Shown: positions 21,435 through 61,139 of the stretch, piece by piece
Layout: each line of letters starts with the position of its first letter
How positions within the stretch are numbered: position 1 is the first letter of the stretch
Assembly (NCBI GenBank): GCA_029582155.1
Contig: CM055902.1
Span: forward strand, 16,449,279-16,513,278
Reading direction: 5' to 3'
DNA length: 64,000 nucleotides
From: Panopea generosa
Lineage: Eukaryota; Mollusca; Bivalvia; Adapedonta; Hiatellidae
Notes under the pieces: generated by a model
Told to the model about the DNA's origin: nothing
Databases searched by the model: none
Seen by the model: the letters and a program-made list of their open reading frames with translations, nothing else
Position numbers and translations under genes: made by a program

Positions 21435-21711
21435 ATAGTGAAATAATAAATGGTGATGTATCACAAACCTATTCAGTGGTTGTTTCTAACCCAGTTCAAC
21501 ATTTCAAACAAATCTCCGTAATAATATCTTGCAATACACGAAAAGTGGGTGGGTGGGGCTTTACAGAATGATTCACGTGGTACAATGGGTGATAATTCTA
21601 CTTTTCAGAGTAGAATAAAGAAGGTGCAAAACCATACTGAGAATTTGAAGCTCGAGATGGGAATTGTAACTCATCTTTGCGATCCAAGGTGCACGTATAT
21701 GTTCACCGCTG

Positions 21712-22227
21712 ATGTGTACATTACGCAAAGGAAGAGTCGCATTGATATTGAATTATGCATTGTGCAATAAGATTGTACCATGTAATGATGACAGAATTAT
21801 TGGTTTAAAATACGAATGCTCTAAAAATGTATATATGTACATGTTCCAGGTATATCTTCCAAGCAGTAATCACTCTGTCGAGCGATATAGAAATTTTATC
21901 GAAAAACTATCTGATATTATGAACATTTATTTGCACAAAGGTCGAATTATGATTATGGGTGACATTAACGCTCACATTAACTCTAGAAAATTCACTAAGA
22001 ATATTGACGTAAAGGGTAATTGCATTCAATCGCTTTTTAATGAACACAATTTATTGTCTATCGATACTTTGTGTCTGTATACTGGTGCTAATTTGAACTA
22101 TTTGTCATATCATCTTGTTAATGAATCTTTGATAGACAATATAATGATATGTGAAGATCATTTAGACTTTATGTTAAGATGTGAAGTTCTAAATGACGAT
22201 GCAGTCTCGTACAGTCTCTATACATGA
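21712..22227 (+). pseudogene. APE-type endonuclease domain of LINE ORF2
   Basis: 171-codon frame with the order of an exonuclease-endonuclease-phosphatase fold: VYLPSS at residues 47-52, a helix, IMIMGDINAHI at 80-90 (the GDxN metal/active-site motif), and SLIDNIM at 139-145 (the S-x-ID-x-I motif near the C-terminus). In LINEs this domain nicks target DNA to prime reverse transcription. The N-terminal catalytic Asn/Glu strands and the terminal SDH motif are lost or out of frame; around 22195 the frame switches to the 22193-22402 frame, which carries the sequence expected next. Confidence 0.85.
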
Positions 22228-37617: not shown

Positions 37618-37671
<54 letters not shown>

Positions 37672-46261: not shown

Positions 46262-46293
<32 letters not shown>

Positions 46294-49074: not shown

Positions 49075-49670
49075 AAAATGCCACGTATGTTTTACATATG
49101 TTTCGTCCAACATATGTTAAACATACGTTAAACGTATGTTTTACATGCGTTTTGATTAGCATACGTTTGAAAACATACGTTTAACTTACGTAAATAAACA
49201 TATGATAATCAGAAATGCACGTTAAACATACGTTTACAGAAACATATGTTAAACGCATGTTAAACGTACATTTGTCATACGTGATTCAATTCATATGTTT
49301 AACATACGTCAAAATGAATATATGATTATTGCCCTAAAATCTTCCACAGCACATGACACTCACTATTTTTGGAAATATCACTAGCAGAACCAGTACGAGA
49401 ATCATAAATACAAGTTTGATAATCAAAAACGTATGTAAAACATACGTTTGTCATATGCGTTTCGATTCAGATGTTTAAAATATGTTTAAAAGTCTATATA
49501 ATGATTGCGCTAAAATATCCAACAACACTTAGAACATACTGTTTTAGGGCTCATTAACAGAGGCAGAGGCTAATTTTAAAAACAATCATGTTACATATTA
49601 TTCATATATGTTAACAAAACCATATGTAAACATATGTGTGTCATACACATTTTTAATCCAAATGATTTAT
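49075..49670. repeat. Left-arm array of palindromic ACGTATG/CATACGT motifs
   Basis: Dozens of near-palindromic words such as AACATATGTTAAACATACGT, AACGTATGTTTTACATGCGT and AAACATACGTTTAAC follow in irregular spacing, interrupted by unique spacers at 49325-49425 and 49490-49590. The density recalls subterminal transposase-binding repeats of DNA transposons (inference). Confidence 0.85.
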
Positions 49671-54954: not shown

Positions 54955-57052
54955 AAACGACTATTGTGAAAGCTGAATCCATCCTGAATGGACATAACAA
55001 TATCGATTAGAAAATTTCGTTATAACTCCGATTGGTTAGTGCATTCAGAAAAATATCATTATGTTACTTTAACGATCTAACCACCCAGAAATATGGTGTC
55101 AGTGATCTGGCACAGATGTTTATTGGTGTATGGAACATTGTGACACTAGTTCGATAACAGTATGGCGCTGAATGGCTTTAATATTCTAATCTCTTTTGTT
55201 GTTTTATCAAAATAACATCTTCGAAAACTAAATACGATTTTTATCTTGATAATTAACGGAGCTTATTGATCTCATGGAAAATATGTTACTGTTCAATGGT
55301 CTCAATGGTATAAAGCTGTTATTTTAACTTTATTAACAGTGCCAATTTTTTCGGTATTACCGTTACATTATTAGGATTGCGCCTGGATAGCGCAGATATA
55401 TTCTCCATTATGTAACCTCTAAACACTCTTCCTTAGAGGTAGTTCTTCCGTCGGTATTACCGTTACATTACAGGATAGCGCCTGGATAGCGCAGATATAT
55501 TCTCCATTATGTAACCTTTAAACACTCTTCCTTAGAGGTAGTTCTACCGTCGGAGCTTATTAAGTTGTTGTTTTCCAAAAAAGGATACAGCTTTAACCCG
55601 TGCTTATTTGTATAGTTAAGTACTTAGAAACAAATTAAAAGAAACCGACTCTTCTATTGTCTTCATTTTATGTTCTAATAATTTTTTTTTCTATTTTCTT
55701 AAAATAAATATGCTGGCTGTTTGCTATTAGTGTATCTTTTATCAGATAGATTGAATATAATTATCATATTGAAGTTTAAAATTTAATAAAAAAACTGAAA
55801 ATATTTTTTGAAAAGTGTTAATTGGCAAACCATTTTTACCCAGTATATACGGCTAAGAATATACTGACAAAGATTCTGTTTCGATTCCACCATTGCGACT
55901 CTGGTAACGTTCTTTGTCTTTATCATGTTTGAGCGGATCGGATTCCAAATGATTCGTATGTAAGTTATGAATGACTAATAGATTGGTTATATTCAATTTG
56001 ATCGTAACTTGTATAATGTTCCGTTCTCATACTAATATATAAACACAATTCTCCTCTATCTGATACACAGACTATGATCATATTTCTTTCTGATAGATAT
56101 ATCATAAACATATCGAACAAAAACATACATAACATTCGATAATCAGCATTAGTTTTGCGAATATGAATTTAAGTACTTCTGTCATTAAAATGACGATTTT
56201 ACAATGATCTTAGTAAGATAAACAAATACAACTTTCAGACAATTGCCATAACATATTGTTCTTATTTTCTATTATATTTGAATCCGATTTCAAATAGTTG
56301 AGATATCGACGAAAATCCTAGATGCTTGGTTATATGTTGTGTTTAGTATTTGCAATATTGAGTGAAGTTTTAGTAAAAGTATAGTTGCATGTGGCATGTT
56401 TTTTTTTTTGCAATATCGAAATCAGCGTTATTACTGTGTTTGCATATGACAAACGTAGTTCATGAACGGAAAAGGACATTTTAGAGACTGCCGATGAATG
56501 AGTCGTTTTATGAGATCACTACTACAGAAAATGTTACTGTATACATAATTCAGATGTGAAAGAGACCAACAAACTATACATCAAAATGTCACACCACCAT
56601 ACTTTACTTAAAGCAGTTTAAACAGATATTTACTAAAATAAATGTTGATTTGGCCGAAACATGTTCTTATACCCCTAACATATGTTACAAGTTAAAACAA
56701 ATGTAAATTTGGATTATTATCAAATGTAGCATATAGACATCATTGGTCTAGTAAACGTTTTGTGTAATGGACACTGCTGGGAACTTTTACCGATATTTGA
56801 GCACAGAAATAATTTGTAATAGTCAATTTGTCTGAAAGAAACATTTCGTCAATTGATGTTTAGTGTAGACATCCAAGACTATTTATATCCTATCTTTTAC
56901 GAAAATACTGCTTATGACAATAATGATAGTGACATTTTCATCGGGAACCATGCTGTAAAACGTTAATATAGCTTTAGGCCATAAAGAATTGTCAGTTTTA
57001 TTACTAAAATGTATCCAATAACTTCATTTACATTTTTCAAGTACAGAAGAAG
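54955..57052. repeat. Large noncoding duplication, copy 2, left part
   Basis: Direct-orientation homologue of 27940-30180. The last shared text before the tyrosine-recombinase insertion is TTTTTCAAGTACAGAAGAAG, aligning with TTATTCAAGCACCGATGCAG at about 30165. It lacks the family-3 SINE of copy 1 and carries the 100-bp tandem duplication listed separately. Confidence 0.85.
55351..55552. repeat. Tandem duplication, 100-bp unit x2
   Basis: TCGGTATTACCGTTACATTA starts at 55351 and 55451. Each unit holds TGGATAGCGCAGATATATTC and a hairpin-capable TAACCTCTAA...TTAGAGGTA. The copies are nearly identical. Confidence 0.93.
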
Positions 57053-57115
57053 ACGTCTTAACTAAACTCTCAAACGAAATAACAACTACTATTTCTTGCA
57101 TACAGCGAGCTTTAT
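57053..57115 (-). repeat. Split direct repeat Y, outer copy (element 3' end)
   Basis: ACGTCTTAACTAAACTCTCA, then AACGAAATAACAACTAC, ending CATACAGCGAGCTTTAT. It matches 57767-57827 with few differences. Confidence 0.9.
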
Positions 57116-57701
57116 TACTTGCGTGTTCGTTCGTGATTGTTGTACGTATACAACAAATCATACAATACGAACATACAAAGTCACAATTACAGAAATACAT
57201 CACAGGTGGCTGCATGCCGTCTACGCAACCCTACTCACTGTGGAAGGGGGACGTACGATTTGACCATGTGCTGTACAGCATAGACGAATAATAAAGACGA
57301 GTACTAATCAAACAGGTATCATACCGCCAGAATAATTAATGATATGGTCCTGCAATACCAGCGCAATCACGTGATTATTTGTCTCTGGTGTTGACTCACC
57401 TACCTGAATATTCAAACTAAACACATATAAACGTATGAAACACTTTATGATTCCAATGTTACTTTTAACATTTGTATTGCTACATGAGATACATAAAAAG
57501 CCATAAACTGTACACAAATTATAATATTACATAATTCGCTTTTCAAAAATTATTTTATTTATTTTAAATATAATTTTAATTTGAATTCGATAAGAAACTC
57601 GACGGAACACGTTGAAATCTGGCGTAGAAACGATTAAAAAAACAAATCACCCGCCAGTATCCGCGTGACAACTATTGTCACGCGCTCAAATACCTTGAAT
57701 T
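57116..57701. other. 3' spacer of the recombinase element
   Basis: The ~590 bp between B2 and A2. Frames at 57024-57215 and 57308-57517 (minus) are not recognised. It ends with the strong hairpin at 57662-57684. Confidence 0.5.
57662..57684. other. Perfect 10-bp-stem hairpin with 3-nt loop
   Basis: CGCGTGACAA, CTA, TTGTCACGCG: GC-rich and exact, about 20 bp from the inner X repeat. It could be a recombinase-binding or RNA-structure element (inference). Confidence 0.9.
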
Positions 57702-57765
57702 CTTTTCACGAACAATACCGTTAAGACAATAGTTCTTTGCTATATGTTGTAACGCAGAGAAGTGA
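57702..57765 (-). repeat. Split direct repeat X, inner copy
   Basis: CTTTTCACGAACAATACCGT, TAAGACAATAGTTCTTTGCT, TTGTAACGCAGAGAAGTGA. It matches 59822-59885. Its right end is one base from the inner Y repeat, reproducing the junction a circularised element would have. Confidence 0.9.
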
Positions 57766-57766
57766 T

Positions 57767-57827
57767 ACGTCATAACTAAACTCTCAAACGAAATAACAAC
57801 TACATGCATGCATACAGTGAGCTTTAT
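57767..57827 (-). repeat. Split direct repeat Y, inner copy
   Basis: ACGTCATAACTAAACTCTCA through CATACAGTGAGCTTTAT, the second copy of the 57053-57115 repeat. Confidence 0.9.
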
Positions 57828-57946
57828 AGACTGATAAATTTTAGAAAAATTTTCAATTTCAAATTTATGAGATGTACGTGTAGGCCTACACTTATCTACA
57901 TTTACGTATATTGCCGCTAAGTAATGTACTGATTTTCAGAGTTATT

Positions 57947-58860
57947 TTATAAGTTGAATTTCTTAGTAATGAATAATCTCTTCTCAACTGAATCTACCAC
58001 ATAACCATCCTTGTCCTGATTGGTTTTCCATCTACCGTGTCTCTTCAGACACCTATCAGTAACGCCAGCGTTTGCTGCCATGGTTACGCCACTAGCTCTT
58101 AATGGATGAGCTCCTAAATGTTAATGCGGTGCAACCATCTTCAATTTGCTAACGATACATTCGTAAGCTCAAGTGTAACTCAACTTCTTGTTTTATCTAT
58201 TAGCTTACACTGCACTGACACTTTGACCCAATATGAGAGTAATTGTCAGAAACCGTTTTTTACCTGTAACTGACATTTATTTGACCAACATTTCATTCGG
58301 ACATTCGTTTCAACAACCCTTTGCGATAAGAACCTCTATACATATCTGTTTTACTTGTTCTCAACTCAACAACAACATCGTCAGCATTGAACTTTGTAGC
58401 ATTCCATTTTATTTCACTTATCTCATAAATTCAGCATAACCCAATATAACTGTTGATAAATCTCTTAAATGCAAAAAATCTTCTGTATTAAACATTCCGC
58501 ACAGTAGCTTCAATAATTCAGTATTTACAGTGTCTATTTAAAAATAGGTTTGGATCTTAACCTCTTTGCTGCTTCCAAAAGCTTCTTGACAAAACTATTT
58601 GAAGTAGGATCATCTGAATTGTTCATATCATGTGCCCACTCGATGCTGTAAAACGCTGCACTAATTACACTGTACGAAACATCACTGTCTAAAAGATGAG
58701 TCAAATACACCGAAACGTTTATGGACGATGTTGGTATAGCAACAAAACACTTTTGTTCAAGCTCACTGCAACTTTGATAATTATGTCCAATTTGTATTGT
58801 GAGCCCTAGAACACAATACGTACTTGGCCATCGTCGAAATGGTTTCACAAGCTTCGTTCG
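57947..58860 (-). pseudogene. Tyrosine recombinase (integrase) remnant
   Basis: Three pieces in N-to-C order on the minus strand. About 58860-58534 is an N-terminal helical domain (FRRWPSTYCV, ISAAFYSIEWAHDM, then FVKKLLEAAKRL). About 58440-58350 holds KFNADDVVVELRTSKTDMYR, the 'sKtD.yr' strand region of the catalytic core. About 58150-57947 holds HPLRASGVTMAANAGVTDRC and CLKRHGRWKTNQDKDGYV, carrying the HxxR box, the second His and the nucleophile-position Tyr of the R-H-R-H-Y family, ending at a natural stop (57947-57949). Frameshifts and stops separate the pieces and the first catalytic Arg is not securely seen. The role would be integration of the circular DNA intermediate. Confidence 0.85.
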
Positions 58861-59159
58861 TCGACGTCTTTATCCCAGCTTTCTGATACTCTTTCGCCAA
58901 CGATTCCTTTTTACCGATACCTGTTAAAACACATGAATTTGTTTCATAATTTTTCATTTTTACGTGATAGTGTCACTATGATTATAACTATGATATATGC
59001 ATATTTTTTGATACACCGAATCTTATTTTTAATGCTAGTAAATCAATCTCAACCTGTCTTTACTGAATATGCCGTTATTGCCTCTGACTTTACAAAGATA
59101 ACAATATGTCATCGTGTATGAAATATTGAAATGAGCCGGTATCGTTCAACAACAACGGC

Positions 59160-59765
59160 CAGAAATTTGCCGATGTCAACATGGGAATAACCATTGTACA
59201 ATCTGCGCTTTCTGTTTCTATCTTTTTTATACTATTAGATATCAAATCAGGCGGCGGAACGAAAAAAAAGTTTATTTAACTTGACCAAACCTGATCGATT
59301 GCATTAATGCCTTCCGTTCTTGGTACCCAGAACTTTGAATTGAACAGCAAACATTTGTTATTGAAATGTGAAGAAAACCTATCTACTGTGTTGGGACCCC
59401 ATTTAAGATCAACTGCTTTCTCATTTCCATCTCTGGACATTCTGGACATATTTCTATATTTTTGTTCTCACAAACACTGTTTATACCAAGCGCAACTGAC
59501 TGTAAATCGATTTCTCTGCAGAATTGACTTATATTGTCTGAATATATCTTTATTCTTTTGTTTTTAAAGTATCAACATGACTCTTTAAAATTCTTCTAAC
59601 GGCTTCTATCTTACGCCAAGTGGGGCTTCTGTTTTGCTCTTCTCTTAACCACTCAACGGATAGTTCTATTCAGAACTTTTAAGGTAGCCATCGATTTATC
59701 GTATGCAACAAAGTGTTTGTCCACTTCCTGGAGACGCATTCTTATGATCCTTAAATATGATCTGA
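59160..59765 (-). pseudogene. RNase H-like domain remnant of the recombinase element
   Basis: In broken frames on the minus strand: EEQNRSPTWRKIEAVRRIL near 59640, KIYSDNISQFCREIDLQSVA near 59540 (the DN motif region of RNase H), MSRDGNEKAVDLKWGPNTVD near 59420 and FNSKFWVPRTEGINAIDQVW near 59320, then FFSVPPPDLI. The order (W.E..A, DN, LSR, the D.wgp.TvDrF...yns+fw.p box) is typical of the DIRS-order RNase H C-terminal region. RT motifs should precede it toward 59820 but only about 60 bp remain before the X repeat. Confidence 0.75.
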
Positions 59766-59821
59766 TCCAGTGATTTTTTCTTTTCTTTTAAACTGATACA
59801 ACTCTTGTCATATGCTATGAT

Positions 59822-59885
59822 ACTTTTAACAAACAGTACCGTTAGGACAATAGTTTTTTATATACGTTGTAAAACAGAGAACTGA
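59822..59885 (-). repeat. Split direct repeat X, outer copy (element 5' end)
   Basis: CTTTTAACAAACAGTACCGT, TAGGACAATAGTTTTTTATA, TTGTAAAACAGAGAACTGA. It matches 57702-57765. Confidence 0.9.
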
Positions 59886-60865
59886 CCAATGCTAACACGT
59901 GGACATACCGCATAGTAACTCATAGCTAGCTGTCTGCTCCCAACTGTTGTAACTGCTACAAATTATGGTTCATATTTATTACAGTTTAAAATGCGCTTTC
60001 GAGTACTTGGAGTCAGTTCGAACAATTAATCACACCGGTCTTGGTTATGATATGTTACCGTTTAAATATTCACAAATAGATAGCTGAACTACGCATTTAG
60101 CATCAACATTTGCTTTCAATCACGTATTTTTTTTTTGTATAGTTTCTATATCACTATAAATTATTTCTTGGCATTTTCTTTGGAATACTTTAAAAGCAAC
60201 TATAGTAAATAAATTTTCTTTTCAAATAGTCTCATATCGATGACCTTATTGTAATGATATGTATATGCACTTTTGATATAAGAAAGACTATGAGTCGTAC
60301 GAGTGCAATATATCTTATAATCTATCATTGGGTTATCATTGGTATCTTAAACGAAATCTCAATGTGAAATAGCAGAAGTAATTTGAAATGCATTTTGTAA
60401 GTCGGATTAGCGCCTCTTTTTCGAGCGTCTAATCAGTTACGTTTAAAGAACTTTCATATTGAAGAAATTGCACTTTCTGATTTTTAAATGTACGTTGGTA
60501 AACGTTATTTTTTACCATATCAATATGTACGATGCGTCATTATGGAGTTTTTTATTTAATGATTTAATTTATCCACAATCACAACTTAAACTTATAAACA
60601 AAATGCTTCTTGCAAGTTTTGCATCAGCGTACGTGTACATCTGCATGATACATCTCTTTAACAGTGTATTTCTTTATTTAAAATACAGTGTTTTAAGTCA
60701 TGACTGTATATGTTTTGTATATATTCACAAGAGCCGAACTCCTGTTGCATTTCAAATTGAACTTCCTTTAAACATATAGTAAACAACGTCCTAATACCAA
60801 AAACACACAATACAGACTGTAGTTATTTACAACAAAGTTTAAAATACTTGAATAGATTCAAGATT
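59886..60865. repeat. Large noncoding duplication, copy 2, right part
   Basis: Resumes homology with copy 1: GTGGACATACCGCATAGTAA (vs GATGGACATACTGCATACTA at about 30196), GATGACCTTATTGTAATGAT (vs AATGACCTTGTTGTAATGAT), GTACGAGTGCAATATATCTT, TGTAGTTATTT and TTAAAATACTTGAA at the end. The frame at 60459-60779 is unsupported as a gene. Confidence 0.85.
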
Positions 60866-61139
60866 CAAATATTTTTTTTCAGTAAATTAAACATATAATG
60901 TTTCTCTTTACATGCAAATTCAAATTAAAGATGCAACACATGACACGTATATAATAGACAAATAATCAATAATGATAGATTCAATTAAATTAGATATATG
61001 ACATTATCTAAATACCCTTTTTTTTTTCTTTTTTTTTTTTGAGGTTGGACAAATATAGACAAAAAATTTAACACACTTTGTCATTATATACTTGAGATGA
61101 TCAACACAAATAGATAGATGAAAACATGTATGCAATTTG

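Follow-up and report, generated by a model that had tools for sequence, protein, structure and literature searches.

We examined a 2,833-bp span, 57053–59885 in minus orientation, within a 64-kb window (the whole stretch of DNA analysed; G+C, 32%). Four short repeats, belonging to two pairs, surround a decayed coding region. Read along the minus strand, the order is the left terminal repeat A1 (59885–59820), the coding remnant, the internal copy of the right repeat B1 (57827–57767), the internal copy of the left repeat A2 (57765–57699), a 583-bp spacer, and the right terminal repeat B2 (57115–57053). A1 and A2 (the X pair, outer and inner copies) were identical at 55 of 66 positions with one gap column and scored 64.4 bits, and B1 and B2 (the inner and outer Y copies) were identical at 57 of 61 positions with two gap columns and scored 80.6 bits. 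The inner copies are almost in contact: A2 ends at 57765 and B1 starts at 57767, leaving 1 nt between them. The initial annotation had described this succession as Y...X–Y...X and read it on the minus strand as an A1–ORF–B1–A2–B2 plan; our alignments bear out both statements, in the form A1–coding–B1A2–spacer–B2. The X alignment that it gave, 57702–57765 with 59822–59885, is contained in the pair reported here (57699–57765 with 59820–59885), and its Y pair is the same as ours (57053–57115 with 57767–57827).

The X and Y pairs were the two best direct repeats within 56900–60100, and both were far above chance: the best repeat per simulation averaged 24.9 bits in 200 first-order Markov simulations, with a maximum of 32.8 bits. 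Beyond these pairs, the 64 kb contained no significant third copy of X or Y (next best match, E = 0.13). Divergence between copies amounted to 17% of aligned bases for X and 7% for Y, a difference between the pairs that was not significant (Fisher p = 0.10). The 3-nt integration core was not readable in this decayed copy when the outer flanks were compared with the inner junction. A short AGAAG similarity also occurs upstream of the outer Y copy (57053–57115).

The spacer between A2 and B2 (57116–57698, minus strand) has a G+C content of 35.5%, similar to the coding part (35.1%) and above the 2-kb flanks (30.7% and 28.2%), which favors the spacer as part of the element. It contains a perfect hairpin with 10-bp arms and a 3-nt loop (57662–57684), 14 bp from A2, whose G+C content is 57%; other perfect hairpins of this type, (TA)n runs aside, occur at three places in the window, all with 33% G+C or less. 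In RNA folding of the minus strand (57710–57640), the z-score was −2.76, and 2 of 200 shuffles were as stable. The hairpin 10-mer AACTATTGTC recurs in inverted form in A2 and in A1. Elsewhere in the window, (TA)n runs lie at 37621–37670 and 46266–46292. There are also two A+T-rich perfect hairpins (49119–49141 and 49427–49449) whose arms, AAACATACGT and AAACGTATGT, are related; spaced by about 300 bp, they are possibly parts of a small element.

A tyrosine recombinase remnant (57950–58767, minus strand), broken over three frames, is situated between A1 and B1 and on the strand predicted from the repeats. A pattern search located its HxxR-x22-W-x8-Y catalytic block, open in one frame at 58001–58108, where the open stretch 58108–58001 reads HPLRASGVTMAANAGVTDRCLKRHGRWKTNQDKDGY. 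The catalytic residues comprise the Arg of FMR (58423–58421), the Lys of SKTD (58352–58350), HxxR (58108–58097), the Trp of HGRW (58030–58028), and Tyr (58003–58001), with the upstream Arg and Lys in frames other than that of the HxxR block and an N-terminal stretch at 58767–58537. The spacing within the block (W at +26 from H and Y 9 further, at +35) is the same as that of H289, R292, W315, and Y324 in Cre, as numbered in the relevant part of PMC4381057, and the upstream Arg and Lys spacings, about 24 and 81 codons in the remnant, are roughly those of Cre (28 and 88). The pattern H..R.{22}[HW].{8}Y had a single match in the six frames of the window; since it also matched twice in 30 simulated 64-kb windows (about 1 per 15), the catalytic pattern by itself is suggestive rather than proof.

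Profile comparison was less clear. Phage_integrase (PF00589) matched with E = 0.014 and 15.6 bits, below the curated cut-off of 27.1, and the query consisted of pieces joined across frames, with X at stops, that had been selected by eye for their fit to the family pattern; unjoined pieces and single frames had no match to PF00589 in Pfam. By comparison, TssR_C reached E = 0.02 with an unrelated ORF from the window, so the PF00589 match alone proves little, and three of nine single-frame pieces gave weak Pfam matches (E = 0.07–0.16), which we took as chance. The recombinase remnant proposed in the initial annotation therefore stands on catalytic residues with Cre spacing, and the weak, sub-threshold profile score adds little to it. 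The same holds for the assignment to order DIRS as far as it depends on a tyrosine recombinase, which is recognized here mainly by its residues.

Convincing relatives were not found in the collections searched (viral_contigs, genome_contigs, phages, and plasmids). Two protein scans of viral_contigs returned 26 and 2 pattern stretches, none of which was confirmed, and neither a degenerate DNA pattern for DR-x2-KRHGRWK nor the B core as DNA had a match there. In genome_contigs, the DR-x2-KRHGRWK DNA pattern occurred at six loci, all of which were dropped. Four were inspected: the motif lay in two 506-aa proteins and one 184-aa frame that were not recombinase-like by eye, and the fourth locus had no ORF reaching 100 aa. 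This indicates that the short motif alone is not diagnostic. Searches by tblastn gave no match in phages and two weak matches in plasmids (E = 0.1 and 1), the second of which is annotated as a tyrosine-type recombinase; a distant blastn search of the element against plasmids gave no match. NCBIfam profiles had no match, PHROGs returned one unknown family at E = 0.24, and three remnants compared with PDB sequences gave chance-level matches (E = 0.058, 1.3, and 0.65). A literature search with the letters RHGRW found no related work.

Other retrotransposon genes were hardly represented. A stretch spread over three reading frames (59437–59692, minus strand) resembles by eye the RNase H of DIRS-order elements. 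It had no RNase H match in Pfam or among PDB sequences, and Pfam gave just Hom_end_hint at E = 0.1, a chance-type score; the RNase H remnant of the initial annotation thus found no support from any profile. RT, RNase H, and gag families had no Pfam match in the three minus frames of 57800–59900. Neither RT nor gag was found in the three minus frames of 59886–61000 or in the spacer, where none of the six frames had a Pfam match at E ≤ 1. These scans between and beside the repeats agree with the earlier statement that the element has neither gag nor RT. Further out, 2.3 kb beyond A1, the same strand does carry an RT-like remnant (62552–62223, minus; RVT_1, E = 3.3e-3, below the curated cut-off), which by eye is probably a separate LINE-type element. 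Another retroelement remnant occurs at 21670–22224 on the plus strand (Exo_endo_phos_2, E = 6.2e-6, below the curated cut-off).

DIRS elements carry a methyltransferase of the Dam type. Upstream of the recombinase remnant, a single-frame stretch interrupted by an internal stop and by a second near its end (59087–59440, minus strand) matched Dam (PF05869) with E = 4.3e-4 and 20.4 bits over profile positions 21–112 of 169, below the curated cut-off of 28.1. When all 700 aa of the frame were used, with stops written as X, the match was again below that cut-off (E = 9.1e-3, 16.1 bits). Modeling the piece with AlphaFold from a single sequence gave no useful fold (mean pLDDT, 34).

The passages of PMC4157794 and PMC3266345 on classification describe DIRS elements as carrying a methyltransferase, DIRS1-like elements with inverted repeats and PAT elements with split direct repeats, and describe Ngaro and VIPER as having split direct repeats without a methyltransferase. 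Split direct repeats in the arrangement A1, B1A2, B2 are present here. By these published definitions, their combination with a Dam-like stretch 5′ of the recombinase points to a PAT-like rather than a Ngaro element. The split-repeat plan thus upholds the earlier label of Ngaro/PAT-type, which the Dam-like stretch, at its sub-threshold score, would narrow to PAT. As no relatives were found, this placement is by architecture rather than phylogeny, and we hold it with moderate confidence.

The same kind of fossil could derive from a Ngaro-like element, with the Dam match being a weak false positive. The repeat plan is common to Ngaro, PAT, and VIPER in the descriptions cited above, the Dam score falls short of its cut-off, and Ngaro has been reported from bivalves and Lottia. 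However, Dam was the sole family matched at E ≤ 10 among the three minus frames of 57800–59900 (in one of the three), and none of seven shuffles gave a match. Moreover, the stretch lies upstream of the recombinase, as expected from the order RT–RNase H–MT given for pol in the corresponding passage of PMC3266345. We therefore consider a Ngaro-like origin unlikely. It is much harder to believe that two unrelated repeat families flank a recombinase fossil by chance, as with a Crypton-like or cellular recombinase beside nested insertions: other retroelement remnants are present in the window, but coincidence would have to account for the exact A–B–A–B order, for inner copies only 1 nt apart, for the correct strand, and for the matching G+C content of the spacer. 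A DIRS1-like element, with a methyltransferase and inverted terminal repeats, would fit the Dam-like stretch but is scarcely credible beside the strong direct pairs, as no DIRS1-type inverted terminal repeats were found, inverted matches between different end regions were no better than E = 0.48, and the 10-bp palindrome that each B copy carries within itself (E = 0.04) is distinct from a terminal inverted repeat.

The geometry of the repeats and the catalytic block of the recombinase support the core interpretation, namely a retrotransposon with a tyrosine recombinase and split direct repeats. More specifically, we read 57053–59885, with a probability of roughly 75%, as a PAT-like element (order DIRS) in minus orientation that is dead and has undergone internal deletion. 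By our reading of the frames, the coding remnant contains at least seven frame changes and nine stops; together with the 7–17% divergence between repeat copies, these indicate that the copy is dead, shortened, and old. It is not a recent copy but an unremarkable fossil of a type already known, and its mechanism brings nothing new.

In the live element, transcription would have started near A1 and been followed by reverse transcription. The internal B1A2 junction, judging from the repeat geometry, would then have allowed the ends to be completed and the DNA to be closed into a circle with a B–A junction, which the tyrosine recombinase would recombine with a short matching chromosomal site, placing A1 and B2 at the two ends without target duplication. 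In the DIRS1 model, as set out in the pertinent section of PMC3266345, internal complementary regions help join the ends into a circle, and recombination at a 3-bp junction proceeds without target duplication; by analogy, we infer that the B1A2 contact may be the counterpart of these regions in a split-repeat element. The gag and RT genes would have been lost by deletion, either here or in a non-autonomous parent element that helpers moved. It is rather improbable that the span exemplifies a family of short PAT derivatives that moved non-autonomously as 2.8-kb units with all four repeats, methyltransferase, and recombinase, lacking RT and mobilized by a helper RT, in which the hairpin beside A2 would be a cis signal for end completion. 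As a dead PAT-like copy, the locus extends the record of a sparsely documented group by one clearly bounded fossil. It also suggests that split repeats can stay recognizable after the genes are ruined, and repeat geometry could thus reveal old PAT-like copies missed by protein searches.

Among known systems, the copy shares with DIRS1-like elements a recombinase and, at a sub-threshold score, a methyltransferase, whereas the inverted terminal repeats and internal complementary region that the cited section of PMC3266345 ascribes to them were not found here. It is closest in description to the echinoderm form of PAT-like elements (sea-urchin and Lottia gigantea Pat1-like), with which it has split direct repeats, a recombinase, and a methyltransferase (here at a sub-threshold score) in common, according to the relevant text of PMC4157794 and PMC3266345. 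That text of PMC4157794 reports the echinoderm form from Lottia gigantea, Nematostella, and others, and puts the internal repeats of the nematode Pat1 form between methyltransferase and recombinase; from this we infer that those of the echinoderm form lie downstream of the recombinase, as they do here. The likeness is one of description, and the present copy differs in lacking RT and gag, the latter encoding a zinc-finger protein in Pat1, in its doubtful RNase H, and in its disrupted frames. Ngaro-like elements share the A1–[ORFs]–B1A2B2 repeats and the recombinase, as described in the parts of PMC8547959 and PMC9210276 that cover them, and differ in being described without a methyltransferase, whereas the present copy has a Dam-like stretch, albeit sub-threshold. 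VIPER and SIRE, a short derivative of it, are known from kinetoplastids and share the split direct repeats, and SIRE is a precedent for a truncated derivative that retains repeats; in the account excerpted from PMC6681497, SIRE corresponds to the A2–B2 region, whereas the copy described here keeps all four repeats and a recombinase remnant.
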